Positions 7,995 to 24,522 of a DNA stretch of 27,373 nucleotides are shown piece after piece. Source of the stretch: a virus; the IMG/VR virus record IMGVR_UViG_3300037882_001394, positions 1 through 27,373 of that record; one strand, 5' to 3'. The translations under genes and the position numbers were made by a program. Below the pieces are notes generated by a model. The model searched no databases. It was not told the origin of the DNA and saw only the letters and a list, made by a program, of their open reading frames with translations. Positions within the stretch are counted from its first letter, which is position 1; each line of letters begins with the position of its first letter.

Positions 7995-8012
7995 ATGTAT
8001 CGGTTTCTACCC

Positions 8013-8038: not shown

Positions 8039-8051
8039 CCTGTATTAATTA

Positions 8052-9250: not shown

Positions 9251-9841
9251 ATGAACGAAACAACCAAACAAACCAACCTTACCAAGTTCCTTAACACTAC
9301 CAGCACCAACTGGAAGATACTGGAGGAATTTCCTAACTACATCATTACAGAAGATGGAAGAATCTGGAGTCTAGCACGCGGTAGATTTATGCAACCTTAT
9401 ACAGATCCAAAAACAGGATACAGAGGCACTCACGTTTTAAATGCAACAGGTAAATCGTTACCTCGCAGAATACATACCCTTGTAGCTACTGCATTCCTTG
9501 GACCAAGACCAAAGGATAAGAATGTTAATCACATCGACGGAATTAAAACTAATAACAATATATCCAATCTGGAATATGTAACCCAAAAGGAAAATAGTAT
9601 TCATGCCGTGGAAAAAGGTCTTATAAAGACTCTGGATGAACACCCACAAGCCACTAAGAAGAATGAATATGTAGTAGATGCCGTGTTTACCTACCTTATG
9701 ACCAATGACAGTAAGAAGACCATCACAGAGAAATATGGTCTATCATTCCAGTATCTTAATCGAGTGCTGGATGGGAAACTAAGAAAAGAGATTTGGAAAG
9801 ATCCATTTCTAGCACCGTTCAAGCCTGCTAACGTCGAATAA
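9251..9841 (+). CDS. HNH homing endonuclease with NUMOD4-like domain
   Basis: The 196-aa protein has a NUMOD4-type start (WKILEEFPNYIITEDGRIWS, residues 21-40), then an HNH_3-type nuclease: H75 in RRIHTLVATAF and the NHIDG motif (N93, H94, D96) followed by NNNISNLEYVT. A C-terminal region (~150-190, ITEKYGLSFQYLNRVLDGK) looks like a DNA-binding helix-turn-helix. Such free-standing enzymes cut specific sites in related phage genomes and spread by repair. No intron boundaries are evident. I chose ATG 9251 (CTATATG context); an upstream TTG at 9215 would run through the leader hairpin. Confidence 0.85.
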   Translation: MNETTKQTNLTKFLNTTSTNWKILEEFPNYIITEDGRIWSLARGRFMQPYTDPKTGYRGTHVLNATGKSLPRRIHTLVATAFLGPRPKDKNVNHIDGIKTNNNISNLEYVTQKENSIHAVEKGLIKTLDEHPQATKKNEYVVDAVFTYLMTNDSKKTITEKYGLSFQYLNRVLDGKLRKEIWKDPFLAPFKPANVE

Positions 9842-9867: not shown

Positions 9868-9905
9868 CACGCTCTTATAACTCATTGATTATAAGAGCGT
9901 GTTTT
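9868..9905 (+). terminator. intrinsic terminator after HNH gene
   Basis: A 13-bp perfect stem CACGCTCTTATAA/TTATAAGAGCGTG (9868-9880 with 9889-9901), 8-base loop, then TTTTCGTTTCTAT. The promoter-like element at 9926 follows. Confidence 0.88.
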
Positions 9906-9925: not shown

Positions 9926-9945
9926 ATGACATTCAGAGATTAAAT
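9926..9945 (+). promoter_or_regulatory. promoter-like element (variant) before 9946
   Basis: ATGACA-TTCAGA-GATTAA-AT ends directly at ATG 9946. The 20-base distance and the TGACATT core match the elements at 13831 and 23695. It directly follows a terminator. Confidence 0.45.
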
Positions 9946-10221
9946 ATGTATATGCAGAAGAACTTATTCGACTCCCTCTATACCATTACAGAGGAAATAC
10001 CAGAAGCCAACGTATCGATGGGATATGTCGGAAGTCTTAACCCTTCATGGTTCAGCAATACAGACAGACCACATGAAAGCCCTTTGTGGGTTACTGTGAT
10101 CGATTCCAGCATCAGAACGCATAAGACAGAACAGAAAGCCCTAAATACATACCAAGACGCTTTAAGAGGCATTCTTGAACAAATGGGACAAGATGCAATC
10201 AACGACGAATCCCCTTGGTAA
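9946..10221 (+). CDS. hypothetical protein (91 aa)
   Basis: Not recognised. It is a small soluble protein with NLFDSLYTITEEIPEANVSM, an aromatic PSWF/WVTVID middle and a helical C-terminal half (TEQKALNTYQDALRGILEQMG). First gene after the terminator at 9868. ATG 9946 is chosen over ATG 9952 because it sits 20 bases from the start of the promoter-like element, the spacing seen in the late genes. Confidence 0.6.
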   Translation: MYMQKNLFDSLYTITEEIPEANVSMGYVGSLNPSWFSNTDRPHESPLWVTVIDSSIRTHKTEQKALNTYQDALRGILEQMGQDAINDESPW

Positions 10222-11372: not shown

Positions 11373-11655
11373 TGGGAATGTGTGGTGGATTGTTGCCGAA
11401 TTAATACAGCGAAGCATGTAAGGGATGGGCTGTAATGTGGTTATCATTAGTAATATAGTAGCCGATCCATTCCAAGCGCGAAACTATCACCATTCTCCCC
11501 ACCCCGATTACATACTGATAATCATAAAAAGGTATGAGTAAGACCTAGGCGGGGGGGTATTAGGAGACTTCTAGGAGATTGGTATCATAGATAAGTAGCC
11601 GATCCTTAGCGGAAACGGAATTTTGACAATCCCCGGATCTATAGAGATAAGAGAT
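11373..11655. other. non-coding candidate packaging (cos/pac) region
   Basis: No gene seen. It holds two copies of AGTAGCCGATCC (11457-11468 and 11594-11605), a run of seven G's (about 11551-11557), the shared 8-mer GATAATCA (11517-11524) and the promoter-like element at 11623. DNA just upstream of the small terminase gene is where lambda-type phages carry their terminase-binding and cutting sites. Confidence 0.45.
11623..11642 (+). promoter_or_regulatory. promoter-like element before small terminase
   Basis: TTGACA-ATCCCC-GGATCT followed by ATAGAGATAAGAG. It is 33 bases before ATG 11656, longer than the usual 20-23. The second box is poor here; a shifted ATAAGA at 11648 is an alternative. 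Confidence 0.4.
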
Positions 11656-12075
11656 ATGATAGGACAAGAACCAGTTAAGAAGAATGGCAGACCTAAGAAG
11701 CAGAGGATTACCCTTGATACTTCGATGAGTCCCGAGCAAGCCAAGGAACAAAATGTTATAGCAACTGCTAAGGAGAAGATGTATAAGGCTGAAATCCAAA
11801 GGGTTAAAGCATTAGAGGCTAATAAGTCCGTTATTGATACCAAAGTAGTTTCTGGAATTGTTAATGGAGTTTTCAGCACATTAAAGACCATCCTTTATTC
11901 CGCCACTAATAAGCTTCCCGCTCAACTGGCAGGTAAGGAACATGCTGAGATTAATCGAATCATGTTCGAGTTTATCGATGAATCTTTAAAGAGAATGCAG
12001 GAGGATTTTGATAATAAGTTAAGCAACCTCACAGTCACAGATGAGGATGAAGAGGAGGATATAGAGGATGACTGA
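11656..12075 (+). CDS. terminase small subunit (probable)
   Basis: This 139-aa protein precedes the large terminase and overlaps it by 8 bases. It has a basic N-terminus with the GRPKKQR motif (AT-hook-like), a long helical middle (ATAKEKMYKAEIQRVKALEA, then STLKTILYSATNKLPAQLAG) and a very acidic tail (DEDEEEDIEDD). The small subunit recognises the packaging site and recruits the large subunit. I prefer ATG 11656; a TTG at 11623 would use the TTGACA box itself as start. Assignment rests mainly on position and helix pattern, resembling lambda Nu1-type proteins. Confidence 0.72.
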   Translation: MIGQEPVKKNGRPKKQRITLDTSMSPEQAKEQNVIATAKEKMYKAEIQRVKALEANKSVIDTKVVSGIVNGVFSTLKTILYSATNKLPAQLAGKEHAEINRIMFEFIDESLKRMQEDFDNKLSNLTVTDEDEEEDIEDD

Positions 12076-13828
12076 AGCTGAAATCTCCATTTATAGCACC
12101 ATTAAAAGTGCTCTTAAACCTACCGGAAACGTGGACCTTATAGAATGGGCTAAAAGAAATTGCTATGTATGCAATTCGCCAAAAGGTAATACCGTTGATT
12201 TTAATCTGACTCCATACTTCAAGGAGATCTATACAGAGGTTATCACCAATCCCAACTTAAAGGAGATCAATATATGCGCTCCAACGGGTGCGGGTAAGTC
12301 TGCCCTATTGCTGGCGTTAGCACAGACCACGGTGGCATTATATCACAAGGAATTGATGATAGTGGCTCAAAGTGAGAAGATGACATTGGACTTTCTCAAT
12401 ATCCACTTAAAGCCAGCACTCAGGAAGAATAAGAACATTCTCAGGATGTGGCCGAAGAGAGATAAGGACACAAAGGAATCCTTACACTTTCCACATATGA
12501 ACATTTTCACAGGGTATGCTACGGCACCTAATACCCTACAGAGTCGCTCCGTCGATTTACTGGTGATGGACGAGGTATGGATGTTTACTGTAGAAGGTGT
12601 AATCGAGGAAGCAAGGAGACGTTTACAGAACAGACCAGCAAGCAAGATGGTTAATGTTTCCCAAGGTGGAACCCTAGGAGATCAATTCCATAAAACCTAT
12701 TCCTTGGGACTGTTGAAAGAATACGCTTGGAAGTGTGAAGGATGCGATTCAAGGAATATCTATAAATTCGCTGATCTTAAATTTGAATGCATTAAAGACT
12801 CTGACGGCATTCCCATCTGGAATACTGTATATGCGGAATTGGAATGCCCTTGCTGCAATAAGCGATACCCTGACATTATAGAGAATCGCAGAAAACTTTC
12901 AGAGGGTGGAATCTATGTGGTAGAAGATCCGGAACAGAATTACCTACCACAGCATGTATCATATAATTTCAATGCGCTTGCTCTATATGATGTTTCATGG
13001 ACACAGACGGCATTAGACTTTCTCACTGCCAATCATTCTAATATGCGTAGAACCGCTCTAAAGCAGTTCGAACAGAAGAGGCTTGGCTTATTCTATGACG
13101 AATCAAAGAACGTGGAGACGTTCAACCTAGAGGCAATATCCGATGGATACCTAATGGATCAATATAAGGATGATCCTTGGGAAGTCCGTCTAATGACTGT
13201 TGACGTTCAAGGTTCTCAGATGTGGATAGTTATTAGAGATTGGACCAAACAAGGAGCAAGCAGACTTGTCTCTTTTAAATACTGTTCACACTTTCACGAT
13301 ATCGAGAGAATCAGGGTGGAATATAATATTAAACCTAAAGCTGTCTTCATTGATGCCGCTCACAGATCCCCGGAAGTTAAGCAAGCTTGTGCTCAATATG
13401 GATGGATGGGATTGAATGGCTTGAAGGATACCCTTTATAAATGGAAGGAAAGAAGCGGAAGAACAGTGGAGAAAATGTATTCGTCTCCTGATGCGACAAG
13501 AAGAGTTCCCATCAAGTTACCATCGGGAAATAAAATAGTTCATATCATTAACTACGCTGGAACCACTACAAAGGACACTCTGGCGACAATCCAGAATAAT
13601 CCTAATACAAGATGGTTAATCCCGAACGGTGGTGAGAACTACGCTCAATATCTCCATCAGATCCAAGGTTCCGAGAGAAGAGAGATAAGTAAGATCTCAG
13701 GAAAACCATTTTATACCAAAGTAAAAGACGCAAACCACGGTTACGATTGCGAGGTTATGCAGATAATCGCTTCTCAGGTTTGGCAATGTCTGGTGTTCGG
13801 TGGTGAGGAAGTGAAGGAGGATAGCTGA
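12068..13828 (+). CDS. terL: terminase large subunit, lambda gpA (GpA) family
   Basis: The 586-aa packaging motor and nuclease. The N-terminal ATPase shows Walker A APTGAGKS (residues 71-78) and Walker B DLLVMDE (163-169, catalytic E169). A zinc-binding insertion with two Cys pairs follows (CEGC near 224 and CPCC near 270), typical for GpA. The C-terminal nuclease domain shows acidic beta-strand ends in MTVDVQG (about 378) and VFIDAAH (about 430). Overlap with the small subunit means coupled translation. GpA-type terminases usually go with cos packaging. Confidence 0.93.
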   Translation: MTEAEISIYSTIKSALKPTGNVDLIEWAKRNCYVCNSPKGNTVDFNLTPYFKEIYTEVITNPNLKEINICAPTGAGKSALLLALAQTTVALYHKELMIVAQSEKMTLDFLNIHLKPALRKNKNILRMWPKRDKDTKESLHFPHMNIFTGYATAPNTLQSRSVDLLVMDEVWMFTVEGVIEEARRRLQNRPASKMVNVSQGGTLGDQFHKTYSLGLLKEYAWKCEGCDSRNIYKFADLKFECIKDSDGIPIWNTVYAELECPCCNKRYPDIIENRRKLSEGGIYVVEDPEQNYLPQHVSYNFNALALYDVSWTQTALDFLTANHSNMRRTALKQFEQKRLGLFYDESKNVETFNLEAISDGYLMDQYKDDPWEVRLMTVDVQGSQMWIVIRDWTKQGASRLVSFKYCSHFHDIERIRVEYNIKPKAVFIDAAHRSPEVKQACAQYGWMGLNGLKDTLYKWKERSGRTVEKMYSSPDATRRVPIKLPSGNKIVHIINYAGTTTKDTLATIQNNPNTRWLIPNGGENYAQYLHQIQGSERREISKISGKPFYTKVKDANHGYDCEVMQIIASQVWQCLVFGGEEVKEDS

Positions 13829-13830
13829 GT

Positions 13831-13850
13831 TTGACATTTTCCCTATTAAT
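13831..13850 (+). promoter_or_regulatory. promoter-like element before gpW-like gene
   Basis: TTGACA-TTTTCC-CTATTA-AT, ending directly at ATG 13851 (20 bases from TTGACA). Confidence 0.5.
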
Positions 13851-14117
13851 ATGGGACTGGATAAATCGCTTTATCTTTGGGGAAAGAATTGCCCCGAAAG
13901 ACTGGAACAATTGAGAACTTGGCTGGATGCCACCATTATCAAATGTGCATCTGGTGAAGGTAAGACAGTTGCTTCCACTACCGCTAACGGGATTTCCGTA
14001 GCCTTTATGTCTAGTTCTTTAACTGTAGAAGAATGGATAGCCGCTTTAACAAGTGCAATAAGGATGCTGGAAAATCCCGGTGTATCAACCCGCAAGACAA
14101 TTCAAGTTTTCAGATAA
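13851..14117 (+). CDS. gpW-like head-tail joining protein
   Basis: This 88-aa protein sits between large terminase and portal, exactly where lambda has gene W. The C-terminal half has the pattern GKTVASTTANGISVAF followed by a helix (TVEEWIAALTSAIRMLENP), similar in order to gpW-type beta-hairpin and helix. gpW binds the portal ring after packaging and prepares the head for tail joining. The N-terminal helix (LYLWGKNCPERLEQLRTWLD) is longer than in lambda. Call based on synteny and fold-like pattern. Confidence 0.6.
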   Translation: MGLDKSLYLWGKNCPERLEQLRTWLDATIIKCASGEGKTVASTTANGISVAFMSSSLTVEEWIAALTSAIRMLENPGVSTRKTIQVFR

Positions 14118-14120
14118 TAT

Positions 14121-15515
14121 ATGAGTAATAAGTTAATCAAAGCGGTTGAACCTCGATTTAATAGGAAGATAGTTCCAGCAAAAGCACTTGCTAGGGACTT
14201 TGATACTATTATTACACAATTCGATCACGAAAAACTCATAGGTCTTTCCCGTGGATTGTATCATAACAATCCACTTGTTAAGTCTGCTATTGAGCAAAAG
14301 AGTTCTTATAGTATTGGAGCGGCTTTCGAGTATCGCTCAACCTCCGTAAATGATGCATTCAAGGTGAAAGCCAACAATGCAATTAAGCAATGGTCAAAAA
14401 TCTGCGAAGTATCTGGAATGACATTGAATGATGTCGCTTACCTTGCATCTGTGAAGATGGACGTCGATGGTGATGTTTTCATTTTATTATCAGAATCAAG
14501 CGGAGGATACCCACAAATCCAGTTGATTGAATCACATGCCATCGGTTCAAGAGAATCAGGCAAGATCGATCACGGTAATCTATGGGAAGAAAAAGGAGTT
14601 CTTTACGATAAGAAGACCAAAAGACCTATCAAGTATAGAGTTCTCGCGGAAGATAAGAAAAATGATAAGCTGGTTTCCGTTCGTGATCTAATCCGAATCA
14701 ATGAACCTGCAACCTCATTACGTGGAATCCCTCTGGTAAGTTCTACAATCAATATGCTCTATGATTTGGAGCATTCCCAAGAACTGCTTTTAACTCAGCA
14801 ATTGCTAGCCGCTTCTATCTCCATGGTGGAAACGAATGAAACAGGTTCAAACACCTTTAACCTAGATGATGATACCAACGATACACCCATGAATTATGAG
14901 GTTATCAATCATGATGGTGGAGAACTGAGATACATTAAGGCTGGGACTGGTAGTAAATTGGAGTTCTTAGAGAACTCCAATCCTAATACCAATTGGCAGG
15001 AGTATCAGGACACACTTACAAACATGGCAATCCTTGCTCTCGATTGGTGCCGTAACCTTTTGGGTATGTCAGACAGCACAGGAGTTAATGACAGGCTCGC
15101 GCTGCAACAATGTGCAAAAGCTTGCGTTGATCGTCAGACCCTAATGACACCTTATCTTGCTAGGATTTGTAACTATGCCCTTTCTAAACTCATTAAGAAT
15201 GGGTTTCTGGTCATTGATGATCTTCCTGAAGACTGGTTTGAATGTGTATTTACTAAGCCAAAGTCCTTAACGGTGGATTATGCCAGAGATTCCAAAGCAA
15301 TCTTAGAAGAATATAAGACCGGAATCAAAAACCTTTCTCAGATACTCGCAGAAGAGGGTATCGATTATGAAGAGCACATTAGATCCCGATATAGGGAAGA
15401 GGCTTTAAGAATCAAGCTTAGAGAAGAAACCGAAAAGGAATTCGGTGTGTCTCTGAATGAACTGGATGCTCGTCTTATCAACGCAAACCAACTTACACAA
15501 AATGAAGTTATATGA
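14121..15515 (+). CDS. portal protein, lambda gpB family
   Basis: 464 aa, the usual length for lambda-family portals. Near the N-terminus it reads HEKLIGLSRGLYHNNPLVKSA and later RDLIRINEPATSLRGIPLVS (about 195-214), both typical of the gpB/phage_portal_2 family (compare the conserved RG.P.L). The dodecameric portal is the DNA channel at one head vertex. Charged C-terminal tail (EETEKEFGVSLNELDARL). It follows the gpW-like gene by 3 bases and overlaps the protease by 14. Confidence 0.9.
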   Translation: MSNKLIKAVEPRFNRKIVPAKALARDFDTIITQFDHEKLIGLSRGLYHNNPLVKSAIEQKSSYSIGAAFEYRSTSVNDAFKVKANNAIKQWSKICEVSGMTLNDVAYLASVKMDVDGDVFILLSESSGGYPQIQLIESHAIGSRESGKIDHGNLWEEKGVLYDKKTKRPIKYRVLAEDKKNDKLVSVRDLIRINEPATSLRGIPLVSSTINMLYDLEHSQELLLTQQLLAASISMVETNETGSNTFNLDDDTNDTPMNYEVINHDGGELRYIKAGTGSKLEFLENSNPNTNWQEYQDTLTNMAILALDWCRNLLGMSDSTGVNDRLALQQCAKACVDRQTLMTPYLARICNYALSKLIKNGFLVIDDLPEDWFECVFTKPKSLTVDYARDSKAILEEYKTGIKNLSQILAEEGIDYEEHIRSRYREEALRIKLREETEKEFGVSLNELDARLINANQLTQNEVI

Positions 15516-16233
15516 AATCAATGAACAGGGATTAGAAACCCTGATGGACATGGAACAGTTTCCCAAGTCAGAAATGGATATTACCTCTTTCTTTAAACAA
15601 AGGGAAGCTTACACCGTCCAAGATGGCGTTGCTTATATTCACGTTTTCGGACCACTGATAAGAAACGCATCAGAATTTCAGAAGAGACAATCATTGACTG
15701 ATTACGCGGATATTGTGAACGAGCTGGAACGAGCTGCATCAGATCCCTCGGTGTTCTATGTCGTTATCAGATTCGATTCTCCGGGTGGTGAGTCCATCGG
15801 TTCACAGGAAGTCACAAACATTGTCGAAAGCTTTCCTAAGCCCATTGTAGGCGTTGTATCGGGTGTTTGCGCGAGTGCTGCTTACAAGATCGCCAGCGGT
15901 TGCACAGTTCTTTACAGCACCGTTTCAAGTGAGATTGGCTCAATCGGTTCCATTATCATTATCGAGAACTCTAAAAAGGCGATGAATTCCCTAGGAGTTT
16001 CGAAAGAAATAATCTCCAACGATGGAGCAACCTTTAAATCTGTTGGTGCCGATTATGGAAGTCTTACGGATGAGCATAAGCAATACCTACAAGGCAAGGT
16101 CAACGATTGCGCTCTAAGGTTCCAAGAAACCGTCTTAGCCAACAGACCGGAAGTTAATCCCGAAACATTCACAGCCGCCACCTATAAGGCTTCTGATGCT
16201 GTTCTAATGGGTTTGATCGATGCAGTGATTTGA
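15502..16233 (+). CDS. S49-family head maturation protease (ClpP/SppA-like), lambda gpC type
   Basis: 243 aa. Residues 40-240 show the SppA fold: FDSPGG (91-96) forms the oxyanion loop; probable nucleophile S125 in CASAAY; general base probably K179 (TFKSVGAD). The enzyme removes scaffold and trims head proteins. I chose ATG 15502 since the earlier in-frame ATG lies deep in the portal gene. There is no separate long C-terminal scaffold fusion as in lambda gpC/Nu3; the scaffold is the next gene. Its stop codon TGA is part of the TTGACA element at 16230. Confidence 0.88.
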   Translation: MKLYEINEQGLETLMDMEQFPKSEMDITSFFKQREAYTVQDGVAYIHVFGPLIRNASEFQKRQSLTDYADIVNELERAASDPSVFYVVIRFDSPGGESIGSQEVTNIVESFPKPIVGVVSGVCASAAYKIASGCTVLYSTVSSEIGSIGSIIIIENSKKAMNSLGVSKEIISNDGATFKSVGADYGSLTDEHKQYLQGKVNDCALRFQETVLANRPEVNPETFTAATYKASDAVLMGLIDAVI

Positions 16234-16249
16234 CACTTGCATCATTTAT
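16230..16249 (+). promoter_or_regulatory. promoter-like element before scaffold gene
   Basis: TTGACA-CTTGCA-TCATTT-AT, 23 bases before ATG 16253. The TGA of the box is the protease stop codon. Confidence 0.45.
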
Positions 16250-16252
16250 AGA

Positions 16253-16726
16253 ATGAATCTATTCAGAAAAATTTTACCTAGTGAGGATCTGACTCTTAAA
16301 ATCGAATCCTTGGAAACCATTATTGCCGATCTTCAAAGCGGTTATAATCAATTACAGGAATCCAATAAGGAGCTTTCCGAAAACGTCTCTTCTCTAATGG
16401 ATGAATTGAAATCCAAAGATGCCGTTATTGAAGAAAAGACCGAGGAAATCGAAACTATCGAGGAAAAGGTTGAAGAACTGGAAACCGCAATAGAACAGAA
16501 GACAGAGGAAATCCTAGAAGTTATTGAGAATGTAGTTTCTGTAGAGAAACAAGCGGCAATCAAAGCTTTGGAAATCCTTGGGAATGCTGGTCATGAAGTG
16601 GTTGAAACCATCGAGTCACCGGAGTCTATCGATATCATGGCACAGATGCGAAACCTTAAAGGTGATGATCGCGTGAAATACTATCTGGAACATAGAGAAG
16701 AGATCGCTAAACGCTCCAAGCTCTAA
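16253..16726 (+). CDS. coiled-coil scaffolding protein
   Basis: 157 aa with a long heptad coiled coil from about residue 15 to 100, built of E/K/I repeats (EEKTEEIETIEEKVEELETA), then a hinge and a C-terminal segment (MAQMRNLKGDDRVKYYLEHR) ending in the basic EEIAKRSKL. This layout of coiled coil followed by basic coat-binding C-terminus, placed between protease and major capsid gene, is that of a head assembly scaffold that is removed on maturation. It is not a tail protein, given position. Confidence 0.8.
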   Translation: MNLFRKILPSEDLTLKIESLETIIADLQSGYNQLQESNKELSENVSSLMDELKSKDAVIEEKTEEIETIEEKVEELETAIEQKTEEILEVIENVVSVEKQAAIKALEILGNAGHEVVETIESPESIDIMAQMRNLKGDDRVKYYLEHREEIAKRSKL

Positions 16727-16732
16727 TCACTT

Positions 16733-16752
16733 TTGACAATTTAATATACATA
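16733..16752 (+). promoter_or_regulatory. promoter-like element of the major capsid gene
   Basis: TTGACA-ATTTAA-TATACA-TA, 70 bases before ATG 16803. The space between holds a leader hairpin. Confidence 0.55.
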
Positions 16753-16759
16753 TAAGCCC

Positions 16760-16778
16760 GATCCACTTTCAACGGATC
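16760..16778 (+). promoter_or_regulatory. 5' leader hairpin of the major capsid mRNA
   Basis: GATCC (16760-16764) pairs with GGATC (16774-16778) around a 9-base loop, followed by 24 A/T-rich bases to the ATG. The major tail gene has a hairpin at the same distance from its start (20734-20746), which suggests a shared mRNA-stabilising or translation-enhancing leader. Confidence 0.5.
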
Positions 16779-16802
16779 AAAACAATTTAACAATAACATA
16801 TT

Positions 16803-17627
16803 ATGGCTAATACCTTCGCATCTTTAGACCCATCGGTTGTGTCCGCACAAGCGATGATCGCTCTTAAAAATAAAACCGCTGTCCTTACTCAATTCTCTAC
16901 TGATTTCAGCGGAGAAGTTAAGAGAGGTGCAGTTATCAATGTTCCCCTTTATACAGGTGGAACCGTTCTTAGTAACCCTACCAACTTCGCACAGTCTGAT
17001 TCTACTTCTGCTACTGTTGCTGTTACTCCAGTTCACCTAGTTTCTCCTATCTCCCTCACTTATAGCGAATACAATGCTTTTCATAGCCTTGAAACGCAAA
17101 TCGGTGCTGCTGTTAATAAGCTGGTTGATAAGATGCAAGCTACTGTCTTTGCTCACCTTTCCACTTCCAACTTCTCTGTAGGTCTTTCAGCTAACCCCGT
17201 TGGTCTTACTACTGCTAACCTTGCTACTGCATGGGCTTCTGTTGCTGGTAGTGAAAAGATCTGTTACTTGACTTCTACTGGATTCGGTAACTTCAATGGA
17301 GTTAATACACAGTCATTTAATACCACTGCTGGTGGTCCTGCTTTCGGTTTCGATAACTTCGGATGGACTGATAGCATCGCTACCGCTCAATCTGGTGTTT
17401 ATGGTTTCGTTGCAAGTGGTAGAAATGCCTTTGCTGTCGCTGCTGGTCTTCCTGAGATCCAACGCCCTGATGAAATCGATTCGTTCGTTATCGATCTGGG
17501 TAATGGTCTGCAAGCTAAGATCACTTACTTCTATGATAAAGGCACAAGAACTGAATATATGGCTGCTGAAGCTATGTTCGGTGCTTCTATCGCTGAAGCT
17601 GGTTCTCTGAAACTTACCAAGTGGTAA
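16803..17627 (+). CDS. major capsid protein
   Basis: The 274-aa protein starts MANTFASLDPSVVSAQAMIAL, rich in small and aromatic residues and lacking motifs beyond a capsid-like Ala/Thr/Val composition (SATVAVTPVHLVSPISLTYSEY, FGNFNG, DNFGWTD). It follows protease and scaffold and ends at a strong terminator, and it has a dedicated leader. These are hallmarks of the coat protein, likely HK97 fold of the short type. Codon use is notably biased to GCT/GGT/ACT/CTT, consistent with high expression. Confidence 0.88.
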   Translation: MANTFASLDPSVVSAQAMIALKNKTAVLTQFSTDFSGEVKRGAVINVPLYTGGTVLSNPTNFAQSDSTSATVAVTPVHLVSPISLTYSEYNAFHSLETQIGAAVNKLVDKMQATVFAHLSTSNFSVGLSANPVGLTTANLATAWASVAGSEKICYLTSTGFGNFNGVNTQSFNTTAGGPAFGFDNFGWTDSIATAQSGVYGFVASGRNAFAVAAGLPEIQRPDEIDSFVIDLGNGLQAKITYFYDKGTRTEYMAAEAMFGASIAEAGSLKLTKW

Positions 17628-17645
17628 TCTGAATAACTAATCTAC

Positions 17646-17681
17646 AAAGCCCGGTAAGTGTAAAGCTCACCGGGCTTTTTT
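17646..17681 (+). terminator. intrinsic terminator after the major capsid gene
   Basis: A 10-bp stem AAAGCCCGGT/ACCGGGCTTT (17646-17655 with 17669-17678), then T's and GTGTCCAT. The next promoter-like element begins ten bases later. Confidence 0.92.
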
Positions 17682-17690
17682 GTGTCCATT

Positions 17691-17710
17691 TTGACAATCC
17701 GTCATAAGTA
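17691..17710 (+). promoter_or_regulatory. promoter-like element before 17713
   Basis: TTGACA-ATCCGT-CATAAG-TA, 22 bases before ATG 17713, directly downstream of a terminator. This is one of the best copies. Confidence 0.6.
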
Positions 17711-17712
17711 GA

Positions 17713-18039
17713 ATGGCAAACTTCATATCATTATCCGCCCGTAAGGGTGATACCTATAAGGGCGCGGTGTATTCCATTTCATTATCAGGAACACCGCTGG
17801 ACCTTACAGGAGCATCTATAAAATACCAATTGAAGAGAAACGCTTGTGAAGATCCCGCTTTTGAATTTACAGATATCACCATAAGTAATCCGTTGAGCGG
17901 AGAGTTTATAGTTGAACCTGTAATCATTGATATTACAGCCCGTCAATATCTCTATGATATCGAGATTACTACTGCGGATTCTATGGTAAGAAGTGTAGTG
18001 GAAGGAACCTTTCACATAATCCAAGATATCAGCCGCTAA
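17713..18039 (+). CDS. BppU-N-like domain protein in head module (108 aa)
   Basis: The sequence ISLSARKGDTYKGAVYSISL followed by PLDLTGASIKYQLKR resembles the N-terminal adaptor domain of phage baseplate/fibre proteins (RKGDT...L.LTGA.I), an Ig-like beta sandwich. The whole protein is just this domain. It sits between the major capsid gene and a collagen-like fibre gene, so it probably anchors that fibre to the particle. Its RKGDT motif parallels FRRGDT in the fibre gene at 26855, so the phage seems to use this adaptor more than once. Confidence 0.68.
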   Translation: MANFISLSARKGDTYKGAVYSISLSGTPLDLTGASIKYQLKRNACEDPAFEFTDITISNPLSGEFIVEPVIIDITARQYLYDIEITTADSMVRSVVEGTFHIIQDISR

Positions 18040-18042
18040 TAT

Positions 18043-19185
18043 ATGGATAATTACGAAATCACTGTCGATACCAATCCCGACATTTTCACGGTTTCCGTGA
18101 ATTCGTCACCTGATGTTTATAATGTCATTTATAGGGAAGCTAGGGATGGACAGGATGGATCACAGGGTATTGATGGAGAAAACGGAATTGATGGTATCAC
18201 TCCAATCATTCAGGATGCAGGATCAGGCTTGGAAGTTTCTACTGATGAAGGGAACACCTTCACACCCCTTATAAGCTATCAAGAGATTATCGACGCCACA
18301 GACGTTCAAGATCAGCTTGATGGAAAAGGAAGCCTAGACAGTAACAATCAATGGTTTGGTTCTCAGAGTTTTGATGGCAATGTTACCTTGGGTGGAACTG
18401 TTGGTGAAACTATAACACTAAATGCCCGTTTCGTTTCACATCTTTACCCTTCGACTTCAAACACTAGGGACTTGGGAAGCTCATCTCTTAGATTTAAAGA
18501 TCTTTGGTTATCTGGCAAATCGACAGTAGCGGGTAGCATGTCGAGTGATTCGCTTTCTACTGGTCCTATAAACTGTTCTACAATCACAGCTACAGGATAT
18601 ACAAACACTGTAGGATTAACATCCACTGGAAAGGTTACAGCAACCGCACAAGGATCGTTATCAACGCTTGGAAGTAATGATGTAATGACCAAAGCACTTG
18701 CAGACGCTTCTTATGGTCAAATGTTCACTCTTCTTGATACAACCTATACAACCGCCAGCTCGATTACAAATGTAAACAGTTCCACAACGATTACATTATC
18801 CGCTGGAACATATGCTTACTCTGGATTCATAGGAGCTTACTGTAATACTAACGGAAGCACAGGTGTCTATGTGGAAATCAAACCACTTTTTACTGGCGGG
18901 GTTAGTTCGATGAAAACGATTCAGCACCGTGGAGTTTCATATTATGGTCTTAACACTCTTACTGGTCAATTCATCCGATATGATACCAATGCATCCTATT
19001 TTGCTTCTTGTAACATGGATGCAGGATGGGGGGCGACGAACGGAGTCAGTCAACTGGATGGATACCTAGTGCTTACATCAGCTAAGACATTCGGGTTAAG
19101 TATTAGACAAAGTGGTGTTACTGATGCCACTCGTCCCGCTCATATCATGCCGGGTAGTATTATCACTTTCAGAAAAATTGCCTAA
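18043..19185 (+). CDS. collagen-like fibre protein encoded beside the capsid gene (380 aa)
   Basis: After a short beta N-terminus (residues 1-30) comes a GxY collagen-like stretch (about 34-52, DGQDGSQGIDGENGIDG), a Ser/Thr-rich shaft with phage-fibre features (SSLRFKDLWLSGK; VMTKALADASYGQ), and a ~150-residue C-terminal beta domain with aromatics (GFIGAYCNTNGSTGVYVEIK, TFGLSIRQSGV). The chimeric build is that of trimeric receptor-binding fibres. Its location between major capsid and head-completion genes points to a head fibre or decoration rather than a tail fibre, but tail use is possible. Start ATG 18043 overlaps the TAATATATG context. Confidence 0.72.
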   Translation: MDNYEITVDTNPDIFTVSVNSSPDVYNVIYREARDGQDGSQGIDGENGIDGITPIIQDAGSGLEVSTDEGNTFTPLISYQEIIDATDVQDQLDGKGSLDSNNQWFGSQSFDGNVTLGGTVGETITLNARFVSHLYPSTSNTRDLGSSSLRFKDLWLSGKSTVAGSMSSDSLSTGPINCSTITATGYTNTVGLTSTGKVTATAQGSLSTLGSNDVMTKALADASYGQMFTLLDTTYTTASSITNVNSSTTITLSAGTYAYSGFIGAYCNTNGSTGVYVEIKPLFTGGVSSMKTIQHRGVSYYGLNTLTGQFIRYDTNASYFASCNMDAGWGATNGVSQLDGYLVLTSAKTFGLSIRQSGVTDATRPAHIMPGSIITFRKIA

Positions 19186-19200
19186 TAGACATATTATATC

Positions 19201-19503
19201 ATGGACCTTACCCCTTACCTACTACTTGCCTTTGATGTCTATCCTAAAGTCTCTGTGATTATCTCAGGTGTGACAGTGGAAGCTATCTTTAAAACTTCAT
19301 CCCATAAGGATACAAAAACATGGGGAGGATTAACCGATACATTAACGGACACTTCTATAATGGTTAAGACTTCCGATCTCACCAACCCAAAGGAATTAAA
19401 AGGAAATGTTATCAACCTTAATGGAACATCATATAGAGTCGCCAGTGTGACATATGGTGAAGGTGTTTGCACATTATTCCTAGTTGATCCATCCACTTTA
19501 TGA
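19201..19503 (+). CDS. head-tail connector, gpFII-like (100 aa)
   Basis: A 100-aa beta-rich protein (VSVIISGVTVEAIFK; LKGNVINLNGTSYRVASV) in the place of lambda gene FII, with the typical Y-R-V pattern and final beta strands (GVCTLFLVDPSTL). gpFII-type proteins cap the portal complex and receive the tail. It ends ATGA-coupled to the next gene. Confidence 0.6.
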   Translation: MDLTPYLLLAFDVYPKVSVIISGVTVEAIFKTSSHKDTKTWGGLTDTLTDTSIMVKTSDLTNPKELKGNVINLNGTSYRVASVTYGEGVCTLFLVDPSTL

Positions 19504-20249
19504 GATTAAAGGTTACAGTTGATTCTTCCCAACTCAAAAGGGATTTAAAGAAGTTCACAGAAGCACTCAATAAGGATGCCGCTGATTCAATCATTGAACT
19601 TGCTCAGACTGGATGCACTCAGCTTGCTTACAGAGTGGAACCATACGGTATTACTGGTAAGGCTAAGGACATATCCGAGAAAGCCATTTATAAGGACATT
19701 AATAAGGTTTATTGGACCAATGGGAGAACATACAATGCAGTTAAGAGGATCAATCCTCGATTGGCTGCTGCATACTCCAAGGCTGTTAATGAAAATGATG
19801 ATCAGAAAGCGGAAAAGATTGTTGATTCTGTCATTAATGATTTTTCGATTAAACCGATGGATTCTGGACAGCATTTAAAAGCATCCAGAAACAGCCGTGG
19901 AAGGGTTTCTAAGCCGTCTCCGGTGAATGTGGATAGTGTGTCAGACCTAGAGCGTTTAAAAGCCTTGAAGGTGCTCACAGGAGGCACAGCTAAAGCGGGA
20001 TTCCTTCAAGCTGGTGAATCGTTGGGATCTAAGACAAGAATCCAGAAATGGTTAAAGAAAGCGGCGGGTTTGGGATCATCCCGAATCATCCGCAATGGAT
20101 GGGAAACCGTTGTGTGGATTTATAATCATGTAAAATATACAAGTTCTGTCATATCTGAAACAAAGATCCAACAGGCTGTAAGAAATGGTTATGTAAACCA
20201 TCTAAAGAAGATGCAGAAGCAGGCGGATAAAATTGCCTCCAAGGTTTGA
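19500..20249 (+). CDS. gpZ/HK97 gp10-like minor tail protein
   Basis: 249 aa, basic. Starts MRLKVTVDSSQLKRDLKKFT, then helices and a variable middle (GTAKAGFLQAGESLGSKT). The C-terminal part reads WIYNHVKYTSSV, where gp10-type proteins have a conserved Y.xx.E/YxxxVEY-like patch. Position between gpFII-like and tail-terminator-like genes matches lambda Z, involved in tail completion. Longer than most gp10 proteins (about 130-190 aa). Its stop overlaps the TTGACA at 20246. Confidence 0.62.
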   Translation: MRLKVTVDSSQLKRDLKKFTEALNKDAADSIIELAQTGCTQLAYRVEPYGITGKAKDISEKAIYKDINKVYWTNGRTYNAVKRINPRLAAAYSKAVNENDDQKAEKIVDSVINDFSIKPMDSGQHLKASRNSRGRVSKPSPVNVDSVSDLERLKALKVLTGGTAKAGFLQAGESLGSKTRIQKWLKKAAGLGSSRIIRNGWETVVWIYNHVKYTSSVISETKIQQAVRNGYVNHLKKMQKQADKIASKV

Positions 20250-20265
20250 CAATTCATCATAAGTA
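20246..20265 (+). promoter_or_regulatory. promoter-like element before tail terminator gene
   Basis: TTGACA-ATTCAT-CATAAG-TA, 22 bases before ATG 20268. The TGA in the box is the stop of the preceding gene. Confidence 0.6.
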
Positions 20266-20267
20266 TA

Positions 20268-20705
20268 ATGACGGGTAAATCACTGGTAAAGAATCTTTCT
20301 GCTTATGTGGCACCAATTCTAGGACTTCCAGTTTATAGTTTCGATAGGAATGCAAGTTATGAAGTTCCATGTATCGTTATAGGATATGATTCCGACAACG
20401 GGGGAGAATTAACCTATATCGGTAATTACACGGTGGATGCTTGGGTTAGGGTCATTTATCAAGGTTATGATGATCCTGAGAATGGTTATGGAGACACTAA
20501 AGCCATTGAAGTTCTAAACACTCTGGCAAACAAGACCGCGATTTTATCATCGTTGAATGCTCCATTATCAGGCACAGACACAAGACCAGCAAGAGGTTTT
20601 GGTATGTATGATTATAGCTTCCCATCCATTACAAGAGAACAGGAAGACCATTCAGAGGTTATCAAGGTATCATTTGAAGCCTATACAGTAGCCGCTGACT
20701 TTTGA
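20268..20705 (+). CDS. tail terminator, gpU-like
   Basis: 145 aa starting MTGKSLVKNLSAYVAPILGL, the helical opening of gpU/tail-terminator proteins, with beta strands TYIGNYTVDAWVRVIYQGYDD and a final SEVIKVSFEAYTVAADF. The terminator ring stops tail polymerisation and forms the head-facing end. Order Z-U-V is as in lambda. The stop TGA is inside the TTGACA box of the next gene. Confidence 0.72.
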   Translation: MTGKSLVKNLSAYVAPILGLPVYSFDRNASYEVPCIVIGYDSDNGGELTYIGNYTVDAWVRVIYQGYDDPENGYGDTKAIEVLNTLANKTAILSSLNAPLSGTDTRPARGFGMYDYSFPSITREQEDHSEVIKVSFEAYTVAADF

Positions 20706-20721
20706 CAAATTTACATAAGTA
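20702..20721 (+). promoter_or_regulatory. promoter-like element of the major tail gene
   Basis: TTGACA-AATTTA-CATAAG-TA, 68 bases before ATG 20770. Together with the major capsid gene (70 bases), these are the only two with this long spacing. Confidence 0.6.
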
Positions 20722-20733
20722 AGAGATCCAATC

Positions 20734-20746
20734 GGGGAAAGTCCCC
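20734..20746 (+). promoter_or_regulatory. 5' leader hairpin of the major tail mRNA
   Basis: GGGGA (20734-20738) pairs with TCCCC (20742-20746) across a 3-base loop; 23 A/T-rich bases lead to ATG 20770. The distance matches the capsid leader hairpin. Confidence 0.5.
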
Positions 20747-20769
20747 ACAATTCTAACCTTTAAAATATC

Positions 20770-21144
20770 ATGCCTGCCGTAAACGCAACTCAATTCGGAA
20801 CCAATGTAAACTGGGGTATCAATGCCGCAGAAACTGGTTTCATTATCAATTCTTATACCCATAAATACAGCAACGAAAAGGAAACGATTCCCGGACGTTT
20901 CGGATCAACCGAAACCGTGATATATTTCAACGAAACCGTTTCTATATCTATGGATGGAGAAATCCCTGCATCAAGTCCGTTCTCTGGAACTCTTGCAGCT
21001 ACCTTAACCCTTGGAAACCCTCTAAGCTCATACCTGAAAGGCTCTATTACCACAGGTCAAACCATCACGGAAAGTATCGAGGTAACTGCCGACAGAAAAG
21101 GAGCTAAGAAGTTCAAGCTAGAAGCGATGTATTATCCATTCTAA
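20770..21144 (+). CDS. major tail (tube) protein
   Basis: 124 aa, small for a siphovirus tube protein but with typical features: it starts MPAVNATQFGTNVNWGI, has beta strands and alternating hydrophobics (SYTHKYSNEKETIPGRFGST; VSISMDGEIP; TLTLGNPLSS) and ends FKLEAMYYPF. It stands between gpU-like and chaperone genes where lambda V lies, has its own leader hairpin and a strong terminator, as expected for the second most abundant protein. Only the position and fold-like pattern support the call; no family name can be read directly. Confidence 0.75.
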   Translation: MPAVNATQFGTNVNWGINAAETGFIINSYTHKYSNEKETIPGRFGSTETVIYFNETVSISMDGEIPASSPFSGTLAATLTLGNPLSSYLKGSITTGQTITESIEVTADRKGAKKFKLEAMYYPF

Positions 21145-21175
21145 TTTTCAATCATTCTTTCATATTGTATAATAG

Positions 21176-21204
21176 AAAAAGGCATCTGTAATGGATGCCT
21201 TTTT
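21176..21204 (+). terminator. intrinsic terminator after the major tail gene
   Basis: AAAAA-GGCATC/GATGCC-TTTTT (stem 21176-21186 with 21194-21204), 7-base loop, then CGCGTCC. The promoter-like element follows ten bases later. Confidence 0.88.
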
Positions 21205-21213
21205 CGCGTCCGT

Positions 21214-21233
21214 TTGACAATCTCTATAATAAT
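21214..21233 (+). promoter_or_regulatory. promoter-like element before 21236
   Basis: TTGACA-ATCTCT-ATAATA-AT, 22 bases before ATG 21236 and just after a terminator. Confidence 0.52.
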
Positions 21234-21235
21234 AG

Positions 21236-21625
21236 ATGATACAGATTACAGATATAAATTTGGTTTCCGCTCTATTAACAATGGGAATCTCTCCAGAGGT
21301 GGAAGCACCAATAACAAAGGTGAAACGATTCGACAGGGATGGAAACCCTTTCGAGCATTGCACATTCAATTTCCAAGGTGAAAGCATGTGTGGACAGTAT
21401 AAGACCACGGATCTAATCCACGCATGGAACAATCCTAATTTTAATGATGAGTTTCCAGAACACCCTTTCGCATATATTAGATGCGCTTTTAATAACAGGG
21501 AATTCGCTCTTGATAAGGTTAAGCAGGCAATCCCGTTGATTATCATAGAGAAGAACGGTAAGCACGTTGCAATCAGTGAGAATGCATCAAAGCAGCTTAA
21601 AGAAGAAACCTTTAGAAAGATATAA
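21236..21625 (+). CDS. hypothetical tail-module protein (129 aa)
   Basis: Not recognised. It is a compact alpha/beta protein with a conserved-looking core (TFNFQGESMCGQYKTTDL, PFAYIRCAFNNREFALDKVK) and a helical C-terminus. It stands between the major tail gene and the chaperone, overlapping nothing and ending one base before the chaperone ATG (21627). It may be a further tail assembly factor. Confidence 0.58.
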   Translation: MIQITDINLVSALLTMGISPEVEAPITKVKRFDRDGNPFEHCTFNFQGESMCGQYKTTDLIHAWNNPNFNDEFPEHPFAYIRCAFNNREFALDKVKQAIPLIIIEKNGKHVAISENASKQLKEETFRKI

Positions 21626-21626
21626 G

Positions 21627-22010
21627 ATGAATAAGAAGAAAGATAATATACAGGGGAAAGCATTCTTTACCAATGGCTTTAAGTTCAAAGGGGTCAAATA
21701 TGAGGCAATGACCAATGGGAGACTTGGGATTTTGATCCAAGTAAACAGCGCATTTATCAATGGTGGTAACAAATTGAGAGCTGTATATGATGCCGCTTTC
21801 GTCCTTAAAACATCATATGACGATTTAGAGGAAATCATTACAGAAGGTAATTTCAATAAGGAGGTTATTCAGTTTATGGATACATTCGATTATGAGGATA
21901 CATTCGAGCTGGAAAAGCTTATCTGTAATATCACTGAGGAGATCCAAGCCGTAATGGTGGAAACCCGCAATGATGAGGATGATGAAGATATTGAAGATGG
22001 AAAAAAGTAA
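21627..22010 (+). CDS. tail assembly chaperone, short form (gpG-like)
   Basis: 127 aa. It is the zero-frame product, with an acidic C-terminus (ETRNDEDDEDIEDGKK). Position immediately before the tape measure gene, plus the slippery site near its end, identify it as the tail chaperone equivalent to lambda gpG. Start at ATG 21627; a more upstream ATG at 21567 lies inside the previous gene and is not favoured. Confidence 0.82.
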   Translation: MNKKKDNIQGKAFFTNGFKFKGVKYEAMTNGRLGILIQVNSAFINGGNKLRAVYDAAFVLKTSYDDLEEIITEGNFNKEVIQFMDTFDYEDTFELEKLICNITEEIQAVMVETRNDEDDEDIEDGKK

Positions 22011-22216
22011 GTGAACCTTTCTTCCTCGCTACCCTCATAATGAATATTGCGAGTGAAACAGGATGGAGCGAAAGGGACATTTTAAATATGAGCTATGCGC
22101 GTTCATGGGCATATCAGCACGATATTCTTAGGAAGCGTGGTAAGGAAACCTACTTCAGATTCGGGGAAGCAGACATGGACGATATGTTTAATCTATTCGA
22201 CTCTCTGGCAAATTGA
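21627..22216 (+). CDS. tail assembly chaperone, frameshifted long form (gpG-T-like)
   Basis: At heptamer A-AAA-AAG (22001-22007), immediately followed by the zero-frame stop TAA, a -1 shift lets ribosomes read on in the frame GTA-AGT-GAA-CCT. It adds about 69 residues ending in FNLFDSLAN at TGA 22214-22216 and giving a 196-aa fusion. The extension has no start of its own suitable for an independent gene at the junction. The fixed ratio of G and G-T is needed to assemble the tail around the tape measure in lambda and most long-tailed phages. The final TGA lies in the TTGACA box at 22213. Confidence 0.85.
22001..22007 (+). promoter_or_regulatory. -1 frameshift slippery site A AAA AAG
   Basis: Classic heptamer in the zero frame GGA-AAA-AAG-TAA. 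Slippage leads to the open extension 22007-22216. Confidence 0.85.
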
Positions 22217-22232
22217 CAATTCGCTATAAGTA
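22213..22232 (+). promoter_or_regulatory. promoter-like element before tape measure gene
   Basis: TTGACA-ATTCGC-TATAAG-TA directly abuts ATG 22233 (20 bases). The TGA is the stop of the G-T chaperone. Nearly identical to 2587-2606 before the tRNA-Thr half. Confidence 0.62.
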
Positions 22233-23684
22233 ATGAGTGAAGTAAAGGTCAAATACGCCGCTGACACTACGGGAATCGATAAAGCTAATAAGCAAGTTGA
22301 ATCCGGGATCGGTGGTTTATCTTCTAAATTAGGAGGATTGGCTATGGGTGTGGCTGGCGTTGGTGCTGCATTTGGAGCTTTAACAGTTGGTGGACTTGCA
22401 AAGGGTTTCAGTGATCTTATGGACTATGCTGGAGGCTTATCAGATCTTTCCGAGATTACAGGAATGACAGCGGGTAAACTTGCCATATTTTCCAAAGCTT
22501 TAGAAGATACAGGAGTTTCCGCAGAAAGTATTACTAAGATCATTGCTGGATTGAGTAACAAGCTTGAAGACCCCGGAACAGAAACCGCAGGATGGTTACA
22601 GAAGTTCGGATTATCCATTGCAGAGGTTCAAGCCATGAACCCGGAAGAGAGGTTTAATGCGATTGCAAAGGGTATAGGAGGCTTAACAAGCCAATCTCAG
22701 AAACTTAGTGCATCATCCGCATTATTCGGCAAGCTGGGTGCTTCTCTGGTTGTCATGTTCAAGTCACCTGATGTTATGCGAGAATCTACAAAATATCTCG
22801 GCTCCCTTGCTGATAATTTGACCAAATACGCGGCCGATCTTGATGCTGTGGGTGATTCAATCGGTGGATTACGTTTAAAGATTCTTGGTTTCTTCGCTGG
22901 TATGGCTGGACCTAATATGGACCTCTTCAAGAAATTGAAGGAAGGGATTGATAATATCGATCTAGGACCATTAGGAGCGAAGTTCGGCAATATTGCTAAT
23001 GGACTGATTGAAGCTCTTAAAGATGGTAAGTTTTATGAAGTGTTTTCTGTAACCATTCATAAGATCGGAGAATTGCTTATATCTGTTTTTGAGTTTGGAG
23101 CACAGAGATTCGGGAGAGTCCTAGAGGATACACTAAGAGGAACCAAACTAGGAAGAATGATAGGCATAGAGGATGCTAAGACCGTTGACGTTGGAAATGG
23201 TGCCACTGCAACCTTCAAGTCTTACAGCACTCCATTAGATGATTTCTCTGATATTCAAAAGAGAAACAAAGGATTGTTTGGCACTTCTGATTTTCCATCT
23301 GGTAATCCATCAAAGCATAAGGATCTGACATTAGAAGAGGGTGTAAAACTGTTTCAAGATACCGTTGATGAGTCCTTAGAGAAACGAGCTAAGGAATTTA
23401 AAGAGTGGCAGGATTCCAACTGGCAACCGTCTTTTAATATGATGGAACCCGGAACCACTAATATTCCTGATTGGTTGAAGAAAAGTAATAAGAGCAATCC
23501 AGAGCTTCCTATGTTCAAAAGGGAGAATACAAGCCTTTCTCATATGGCTTCTATTGGTGGCGCAAAGGCTATCACCAACAATCCATTGATCGACCTTCAA
23601 AGGGAGTCTATAAAGATTCAAAAGGAGATTGCCCGTAATACTGCAAGATCTTATGGTGGAACCATGTCAGCGGTTTATATCTAA
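22233..23684 (+). CDS. tail tape measure protein (short, 483 aa)
   Basis: It starts MSEVKVKYAADTTGIDKANKQ, the usual tape-measure opening, then a Gly/Ala-rich hydrophobic stretch (about 26-60, AMGVAGVGAAFGALTVGGLA) and long helices (EITGMTAGKLAIFSKALEDTG, SKLSASSALFGKLGASLVVM). The C-terminal half is charged and ends in a helix (DLQRESIKIQKEIARNTARS). 483 residues at ~0.15 nm each imply a tail of about 70 nm, short for a siphovirus. The frameshifted chaperone just upstream confirms the role. Confidence 0.88.
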   Translation: MSEVKVKYAADTTGIDKANKQVESGIGGLSSKLGGLAMGVAGVGAAFGALTVGGLAKGFSDLMDYAGGLSDLSEITGMTAGKLAIFSKALEDTGVSAESITKIIAGLSNKLEDPGTETAGWLQKFGLSIAEVQAMNPEERFNAIAKGIGGLTSQSQKLSASSALFGKLGASLVVMFKSPDVMRESTKYLGSLADNLTKYAADLDAVGDSIGGLRLKILGFFAGMAGPNMDLFKKLKEGIDNIDLGPLGAKFGNIANGLIEALKDGKFYEVFSVTIHKIGELLISVFEFGAQRFGRVLEDTLRGTKLGRMIGIEDAKTVDVGNGATATFKSYSTPLDDFSDIQKRNKGLFGTSDFPSGNPSKHKDLTLEEGVKLFQDTVDESLEKRAKEFKEWQDSNWQPSFNMMEPGTTNIPDWLKKSNKSNPELPMFKRENTSLSHMASIGGAKAITNNPLIDLQRESIKIQKEIARNTARSYGGTMSAVYI

Positions 23685-23694
23685 TATTCCTAAT

Positions 23695-23714
23695 TTGACA
23701 TTCTGGGTATTTTA
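23695..23714 (+). promoter_or_regulatory. promoter-like element before 23716
   Basis: TTGACA-TTCTGG-GTATTT-TA, 21 bases before ATG 23716. Confidence 0.48.
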
Positions 23715-23715
23715 G

Positions 23716-24522
23716 ATGCCAGATGTAAAACCAACAATTAAAGGGAAGCTATCAACGCCCGGAACATCCCAGACATTACCTAGGGTTAATGCTTCGATGG
23801 ATGATAAAGGAAAGTGGACGGTAAGACACGCGATTTCCTGTAATATAGCAGATGTAGCACTCCTTACACCGCGACTAGGAGCACCTTGCCCGCATACTAC
23901 TTATTCTTTCACCACTCTTGCAGGTATTGATATCGAGGAGGATGGTAAGACCGCAACAATCACCGGAACCTATACAGGAACCCAAGTCTCAGAAGATGAT
24001 GAGGATGACAGCTCCGGTAAGTATAGTTACGAAACCAATATTTCTTTAGGTGATGTTCCGATTACGGAATATTACAGATATGAGGATGTGGTTGAATCTG
24101 AGAAGAACGCAATCAATCGTTACCTTAGTTCTAGGTATGGTTCTAAAAGTGATGATCCAGAAAATGCGGGATACTATACATTAATTGATGAGGGAACCCA
24201 TGTAAACGGGAGAGAATTCATCATAGAATCAGAACTAGGAAAGGAACTATTGGATTTCATCAGACGCGGAATAGTAACCCGTTTACAGCCTAGTATTATA
24301 CGCCGTGTGAGTTACACCGCGAAATCAGAACCCACAGGACCAAAATATAATGATGTGGGTTACATTAAAGAACCAAGGGAAGCACCTGCTATATCAGACG
24401 ATAGAAACTGGCTGTTTAATGGAATGACTTCCACGCAAGACGGATCGGTTTGGAGAATCACTGAGGAATATCTCCTTAGTGGTCGCGGTGGATTCTATAC
24501 AGAACTTTACGGAGACAGCTAA
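23716..24522 (+). CDS. distal tail / baseplate protein (268 aa)
   Basis: Not recognised by family. Beta-rich protein (HTTYSFTTLAGIDIEEDGKTA) with a central acidic loop (SEDDEDDSSGKY), a segment NAINRYLSSRYG and a C-terminal WRITEEYLLSGRGGFYTEL. It stands directly after the tape measure gene, the standard position for distal tail or tail-hub components. Start and element distance fit the late-gene rule; it runs into 24526 with only 3 bases between. Confidence 0.65.
   Translation: MPDVKPTIKGKLSTPGTSQTLPRVNASMDDKGKWTVRHAISCNIADVALLTPRLGAPCPHTTYSFTTLAGIDIEEDGKTATITGTYTGTQVSEDDEDDSSGKYSYETNISLGDVPITEYYRYEDVVESEKNAINRYLSSRYGSKSDDPENAGYYTLIDEGTHVNGREFIIESELGKELLDFIRRGIVTRLQPSIIRRVSYTAKSEPTGPKYNDVGYIKEPREAPAISDDRNWLFNGMTSTQDGSVWRITEEYLLSGRGGFYTELYGDS

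Follow-up and report, generated by a model that had tools for sequence, protein, structure and literature searches.

A TTGACA element at a fixed distance from start codons in a family of Verrucomicrobiota phages

The viral record IMGVR_UViG_3300037882_001394 was analyzed over positions 1-27,373 (27,373 nucleotides; hereafter the window), where the hexamer TTGACA recurs upstream of gene starts. The window belongs to a family of Verrucomicrobiota phages in which TTGACA(C) forms an element linked to gene starts, 19-23 nt ahead of ATG. An original prediction, made on the letters of the window, had described the element as TTGACA-N6-YATAAG-TA and offered it as a short-spacer promoter class or a phage-specific processing or initiation signal.

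The window contains exactly ten copies of TTGACA, all on the + strand and none on the - strand, at the ten positions originally listed (Table 1). A copy was counted as ATG-linked when the ATG opened an open reading frame (ORF) of at least 80 amino acids; gene starts are the predicted ones. By this measure seven of the ten copies lie 20-23 nt 5' of an ATG (13831, 16230, 17691, 20246, 21214, 22213, 23695), with a binomial probability of 3.2e-11, given that 1.6% of + strand positions qualify. The copies at 16733 and 20702 lie 70 and 68 nt ahead of their genes. The remaining copy, at 11623, has its ATG 33 nt downstream and is the only one with a -10-like box (GATAAG) at 17 bp, for which reason the earlier statement that a 17-base reading places no -10 box is untrue for this copy. 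The TGA inside TTGACA is the stop codon of the upstream gene in four copies (16230, 20246, 20702, 22213), as had been noticed before. The start distance of 20-23 bases had also been extended to a site at 9926; this is a variant with a degenerate hexamer (ATGACA), 20 nt from its ATG, and the distance holds for the seven exact copies. A further copy reported at 2587 reads TTGGAA and has three mismatches to the pattern, yet is identical to the 22213 copy at 17 of 20 positions; the argument for transcription taken from a copy before a tRNA half gene rests on this site, which is without TTGACA.

The second box, YATAAGTA, is specific to the window. It had been ascribed to all ten copies: TTGACA is indeed exact in the ten, but N6-YATAAGTA is exact in four only (17691, 20246, 20702, 22213), the remaining copies being merely AT-rich at this position. 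With three mismatches allowed, the window has 16 matches to the full gapped pattern where 13.7 are expected, no more than chance would give, so the signal of the window lies in exact TTGACA and its position. Where ATG follows directly, YATAAG is just 2-4 nt 5' of it and thus too close for a normal -10 box.

The window encodes portal, terminase, protease and CHAP proteins, and its portal matches that of Verrucomicrobia phage P8625 (27% identity, E = 2e-36), which places it among the tailed phages of Verrucomicrobiota. P8625 is the nearest named phage, and its head and tail genes come in the same order. In a portal alignment search, 80 viral relatives were found, with records labelled Opitutae and Verrucomicrobia; of the 384 genomes of that class, 67 gave matches. 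Terminase, protease and capsid protein, used singly as probes, gave no relatives among the viral contigs, and the DNA pattern TTGACAATNNNYYATAAGTA gave 24 matches across them, unrelated or due to chance. The closest relative is a prophage in genome G299 (L184/L185), with E-values of 6.5e-66 for the integrase, 2e-61 for the lysin and 3e-61 for a tail gene.

Upstream of the genes of this family, TTGACA is the top position-specific hexamer. Two classes differ in its place: a short class, to which most members belong, with the hexamer at -19 to -23, and a long class, the P8625 clade, with it at -36/-37. Among short-class phages, 122 exact copies of TTGACA were counted at 19-23 nt before ATG (4.7 expected), which bears out the fixed distance to the start that the original prediction had proposed to check. 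One-mismatch forms are hardly enriched in this class, the largest being A6 to G (8 observed, 2.4 expected), which is the only clear tolerated change. The G299 prophage also has TTGACG at similar distances from several starts, including that of the terminase gene. The elements were picked by exact TTGACA, which under-counts degenerate ones except in the comparison of exact and one-mismatch forms; some elements come from close relatives, a redundancy reduced solely by dropping identical spacers.

The element is kept over phages and prophages of 41-68% GC, and prophages of 44-68% GC have up to nine short-class copies apiece. Nothing is conserved 5' of the short-class hexamer except a G or T at -1; 3' of it follow a C-rich stretch and then a G at about positions 17-18, counted from the first T. 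No YATAAG-like sequence is conserved between TTGACA and ATG in the relatives, where the stretch is often GC-rich, nor is there a conserved column at the -10 position (16-18 bp after TTGACA) of short-class elements. The proposed class of short-spacer -35/-10 promoters did not survive this comparison: the relatives lack a conserved YATAAG, the hexamer is near-exact, unlike a -35 box, and YATAAG in the window stands too near to ATG. The broader proposal, a phage-specific expression signal linked to starts, was supported by its enrichment in related phages and by the lack of a -20 TTGACA peak in 400 kb sampled from two Verrucomicrobiota host genomes. Prophages G097 and G319 show no clear TTGACA pattern, and in three genomes without the portal family TTGACAC-N12-15-ATG is scattered and not clustered.

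Long-class elements have the columns TTGACA, 17 bp, [TC]ATAA, 7 nt, ATG, with mismatches in the -35 box tolerated; P8625 itself has four copies of TTGACA exactly 36 nt 5' of ATG. They are apparently ordinary sigma70 promoters, from which transcripts would start at the ATG as leaderless mRNA. Long-class elements occupy the same gene slots as short-class ones, and in a portal tree (FastTree, midpoint root, no support values inspected) the long class forms a clade nested within short-class branches. This nesting, with the slots retained, suggests that one initiation function was replaced by another. The YATAAG of the window resembles the long-class -10 box moved 11 bp (one helical turn) closer, and is not kept by G299 or other short-class relatives. 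The late promoters of P8625 (L029) at 5412, 10736 and 15558 carry over their -10 region a phage-specific palindrome, GTATCCA-N5-TGGATAC or close forms, a possible operator. Promoters are not discussed in the P8625 genome paper.

In short-class elements, about 14 nt 5' of ATG tend to pair with the first 12-15 nt of the gene, with TTGACA at the base of the 5' arm of the palindrome. When spacers were swapped between genes, folding weakened from -6.59 to -4.73 kcal/mol (z = -12.7), and the swap test was replicated on 83 independent elements (z = -9.0). Such pairing is avoided in genes without TTGACA of the same prophages (z = +3.5) and in host ORFs (z = +3.9), and start-region pairing in the long class is weak (z = -3.3). 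The pairing sequence is gene-specific, as for example CGGGCGTTTC-N9-GAAACGCCCG around an ATG in G117. Palindrome strength is near-equal on the coding strand and its reverse complement (z of -12.2 and -11.1) and G-U pairs are not in excess, so that a DNA palindrome and an RNA hairpin are indistinguishable here. A DNA operator with a fixed centre was rejected as unlikely, as the centres of palindrome and helix vary. The start-codon palindrome is common, not universal.

Among 116 elements, 17 have a terminator-like hairpin in the 60 nt upstream, compared to 14 of 365 control genes. Some of these hairpins end merely 3-16 nt from the element (the G129 stem, 3 nt before TTGACA), leaving little room for any other promoter. 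In the window, three copies had been said to begin 10-20 bases after a terminator; this was found for those at 17691 and 21214 (12-13 nt), while the hairpin ahead of the 9926 variant ends about 24 nt away. The capsid gene has its TTGACA about 60-70 nt upstream in both the window and G299, with a hairpin whose start is 20-24 nt from the first T; for the tail-tube gene the upstream distance of TTGACA is 68 nt (window) and 41 nt (G299). For its capsid and tail genes, G299 shows the same order of terminator, TTGACA and leader as the window, and in both the element 3' of the tail-tube gene follows a terminator-like stretch. The homologue of gene 17713 has been relocated near the integrase in G299 and still has TTGACA 20 nt before its ATG; the element thus behaves as part of a movable unit. 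Terminators, leaders and relocation suggest initiation at the element rather than a pure translation signal. Termination-reinitiation at the UGA was rejected, since no more than 64 of 218 elements share the TGA of TTGACA with the stop codon upstream.

The reading that we favour, at a confidence approaching but not reaching even, is a compact late promoter that starts transcripts near the ATG, combined with silencing of read-through RNA as in phage T4. TTGACA would be the recognition word, with transcript starts up to about 20 nt downstream of it, at the start codon or just ahead, and mRNA that is leaderless or nearly so. Genes in need of a leader (major capsid, tail-tube-like) would use the same element ahead of a leader that carries a hairpin close to its 5' end. 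In RNA arriving from upstream, the spacer would fold onto the first codons and hide the start codon; transcripts initiated at the element would be without the 5' arm and hence open to translation, as for T4 gene e. The reader of TTGACA may be sigma region 4 itself or a phage protein that works via this region, because TTGACA is the sigma70 -35 consensus and is apparently used as a true -35 box in the P8625 clade. In its full form the proposal amounts to a new promoter class, which we regard as conceivable, though rather doubtful: the sole strict element would be TTGACA about 20 bp from the transcript start, without an AT-rich -10 box, in phages of 41-68% GC, gene-specific start-codon palindromes would silence read-through RNA, and one clade would have switched to a standard sigma70 promoter in the same slots.

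Several observations weigh against this promoter. GC-rich members have no AT-rich stretch where polymerase would melt the DNA. Strong palindromes (score of at least 6) occur in just 50 of 211 elements (17 expected), and for the seven ATG-linked copies of the window the hairpin test alone is not significant (P = 0.06). The silencing idea would predict weaker hairpins at elements already shielded from read-through by a terminator, and this is not seen. Moreover, BLAST and phmmer found no non-structural gene common to all short-class phages, the structural genes alone being universal.

As a possible but less probable alternative, control may act at the RNA level: late transcripts would be long, each regulated cistron would carry UUGACA and a start-codon hairpin, and an RNA-binding protein of phage or host, or a sequence-specific endoribonuclease, would open or trim the hairpin and so turn translation on. 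The gene-by-gene matching of spacer and first codons, the strict word adjoining the hairpin as the only fixed sequence, and GC-rich spacers without any -10 box agree with this. RNA is not favoured over DNA, however, by palindromes that are near-equal on the reverse complement and free of a G-U excess; copies 68-70 nt from their ATG keep the element without a start-codon hairpin, and the terminators directly upstream would require read-through.

It is unlikely that the element is a silencer site of the prophage, with a repressor bound to many TTGACAC sites blocking transcription in lysogeny, much as at the stoperators of mycobacteriophage L5. L5 stoperators are many oriented sites near gene starts, bound by a repressor that recognizes 13 bp, and we know of no fixed distance between them and ATG. 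The copies here are likewise many, of single orientation and beside gene starts, and some prophages show a weak dyad tendency, TTGACACC-GGTG. Immunity sites usually vary between phages, however, whereas TTGACA is exact family-wide; a roadblock needs no spacing of 19-23 nt to ATG, and a search of regulator genes found no shared repressor.

Ordinary sigma70 promoters, with TTGACA as -35 box and a -10 box 17 bp on, are disfavoured for the short class and seem to us very improbable. TTGACA is the -35 consensus, exact in the ten copies of the window, the P8625 clade is apparently built in this way, and the copy at 11623 fits. In the short class, however, the -10 box would fall within the gene, where no sequence is conserved, and transcription would start past the ATG; single-mismatch -35 forms are nearly absent from it and tolerated in the long class. 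Chance or an artefact of codon bias, which could account for the full pattern with three mismatches, is refuted by the position test of the exact word (P = 3e-11) and its replication in many relatives, and has a negligible probability.

Two further kinds of promoter were rejected. For a T7-like RNA polymerase, no early gene of the size of a polymerase was seen, and the box of the window, which we take to resemble the yeast mitochondrial ATATAAGTA, is not conserved in the relatives. Sigma54 promoters have a loosely similar geometry, but the elements lack the -12 GC and transcription would start inside the gene.

Among known systems, the Start-Associated Sequences of Cluster K mycobacteriophages, whose role is unproven, are likewise a short asymmetric word at many gene starts, in one orientation, mostly at ATG genes and sometimes overlapping the upstream stop (PMC3203893, where L5 stoperator sites are also mentioned). 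Their word, GGGATAGGAGCCC, contains a Shine-Dalgarno core and lies 3-7 bp before the start codon of non-structural genes (PMC3203893), whereas the phage family described here has TTGACA at 19-23 nt, largely structural genes and start-codon palindromes. In T4, RNA that reads through into gene e folds and is translated poorly, whereas late promoters situated in the DNA for the 5' arm give RNA that escapes (PMC3014915). The start regions of the late genes e and td/I-TevI are folded in read-through RNA (PMC3014915), as is predicted here statistically over the family; T4 uses TATAAATA and gp55 at a few genes, in contrast to TTGACA at many, and no sigma-like protein was seen among the proteins scanned here. 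At the lambda Q late promoter, sigma region 4 uses a -35-like word at an abnormal place in the late region of a phage (PMC6606751), a comparable arrangement, but this is a single Q-dependent site embedded in one late promoter and not one of many sites at gene starts. The late promoters of the related phage P8625 have TTGACA in gene slots corresponding to those here; they differ in its distance of 36 nt to ATG, in the -10 box at 17 bp and in tolerated -35 mismatches.

To our knowledge, gene control in Verrucomicrobiota phages, which are common in soil, water and gut, is almost unstudied. That one word is kept at a fixed distance across so broad a family implies a single conserved reader, encoded by host or phage. 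Its discovery would bring to light either a compact kind of promoter that needs no -10 box or an RNA switch set at many genes together. The element can also serve in practice to recognize prophages and the right start codons of these genomes, and the switch from short to long class in the P8625 clade offers a natural experiment in promoter rebuilding.

Table 1. TTGACA elements and terminator-like hairpins of the window
Feature	Position	Strand	Context
Variant ATGACA	9926-9948	+	ATG 20 nt downstream; 3' of terminator-like hairpin 9868-9901; possible degenerate copy
TTGACA-N17-GATAAG	11623-11658	+	ATG 33 nt downstream, gene preceding terminase; resembles long-spacer class
TTGACA element	13831-13853	+	ATG 20 nt downstream, gene 13851-14117; in P8625 this slot has its TTGACA 36 nt from ATG
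TTGACA element	16230-16255	+	ATG 23 nt downstream, gene 16253-16726; TGA is stop of upstream protease gene
TTGACA element	16733-16802	+	70 nt before major capsid-like gene 16803; leader hairpin 16757-16781; same architecture in G299
Terminator-like hairpin	17646-17678	+	3' of capsid-like gene; next element 12 nt on
TTGACA-N6-CATAAGTA element	17691-17715	+	ATG 22 nt downstream, gene 17713
TTGACA-N6-CATAAGTA element	20246-20270	+	ATG 22 nt downstream, gene 20268; TGA doubles as stop of preceding gene; P8625 gene in same place has TTGACA at 36 nt
TTGACA-N6-CATAAGTA element	20702-20769	+	68 nt before tail-tube-like gene 20770; leader hairpin GGGG-AAAGT-CCCC at 20734-20746
Terminator-like hairpin	21180-21200	+	3' of tail-tube-like gene; next element 13 nt on
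TTGACA element	21214-21238	+	ATG 22 nt downstream, gene 21236
TTGACA-N6-TATAAGTA element	22213-22235	+	ATG 20 nt downstream, tape measure-like gene 22233; TGA doubles as stop of preceding gene
TTGACA element	23695-23718	+	ATG 21 nt downstream, gene 23716; TCTGG/CCAGA palindrome across ATG

Elsewhere in the window, a 5' half resembling tRNA-Thr lies at 2624-2665, ahead of the integrase, and a sequence like a 3' tRNA half at about 8005-8045; the exact 41-nt 5' half, used as a host probe, had no matches in the genome collection searched. ARAGORN predicted a tRNA-Met (CAT) at 1183-1256, the 3' part of which overlaps the start of ORF 1231-1644 (DUF1353). The HNH endonuclease gene at 9251-9841 has its best matches in Staphylococcus and Listeria phages (about 36% identity) and is an apparent mobile insertion. 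Positions 12-398 and 26993-27373 are imperfect repeats of each other (80% and 96% identity) at the two contig ends, lying within tail-fibre-like sequence, and may represent either paralogous fibre genes or, in a circular genome of about 27 kb, a variable overlap. Finally, an inverted repeat of 50 nt (6840-6889 / 9148-9197, 88% complementary) flanks 2.3 kb that include the strand switch of the early region, and is possibly regulatory.

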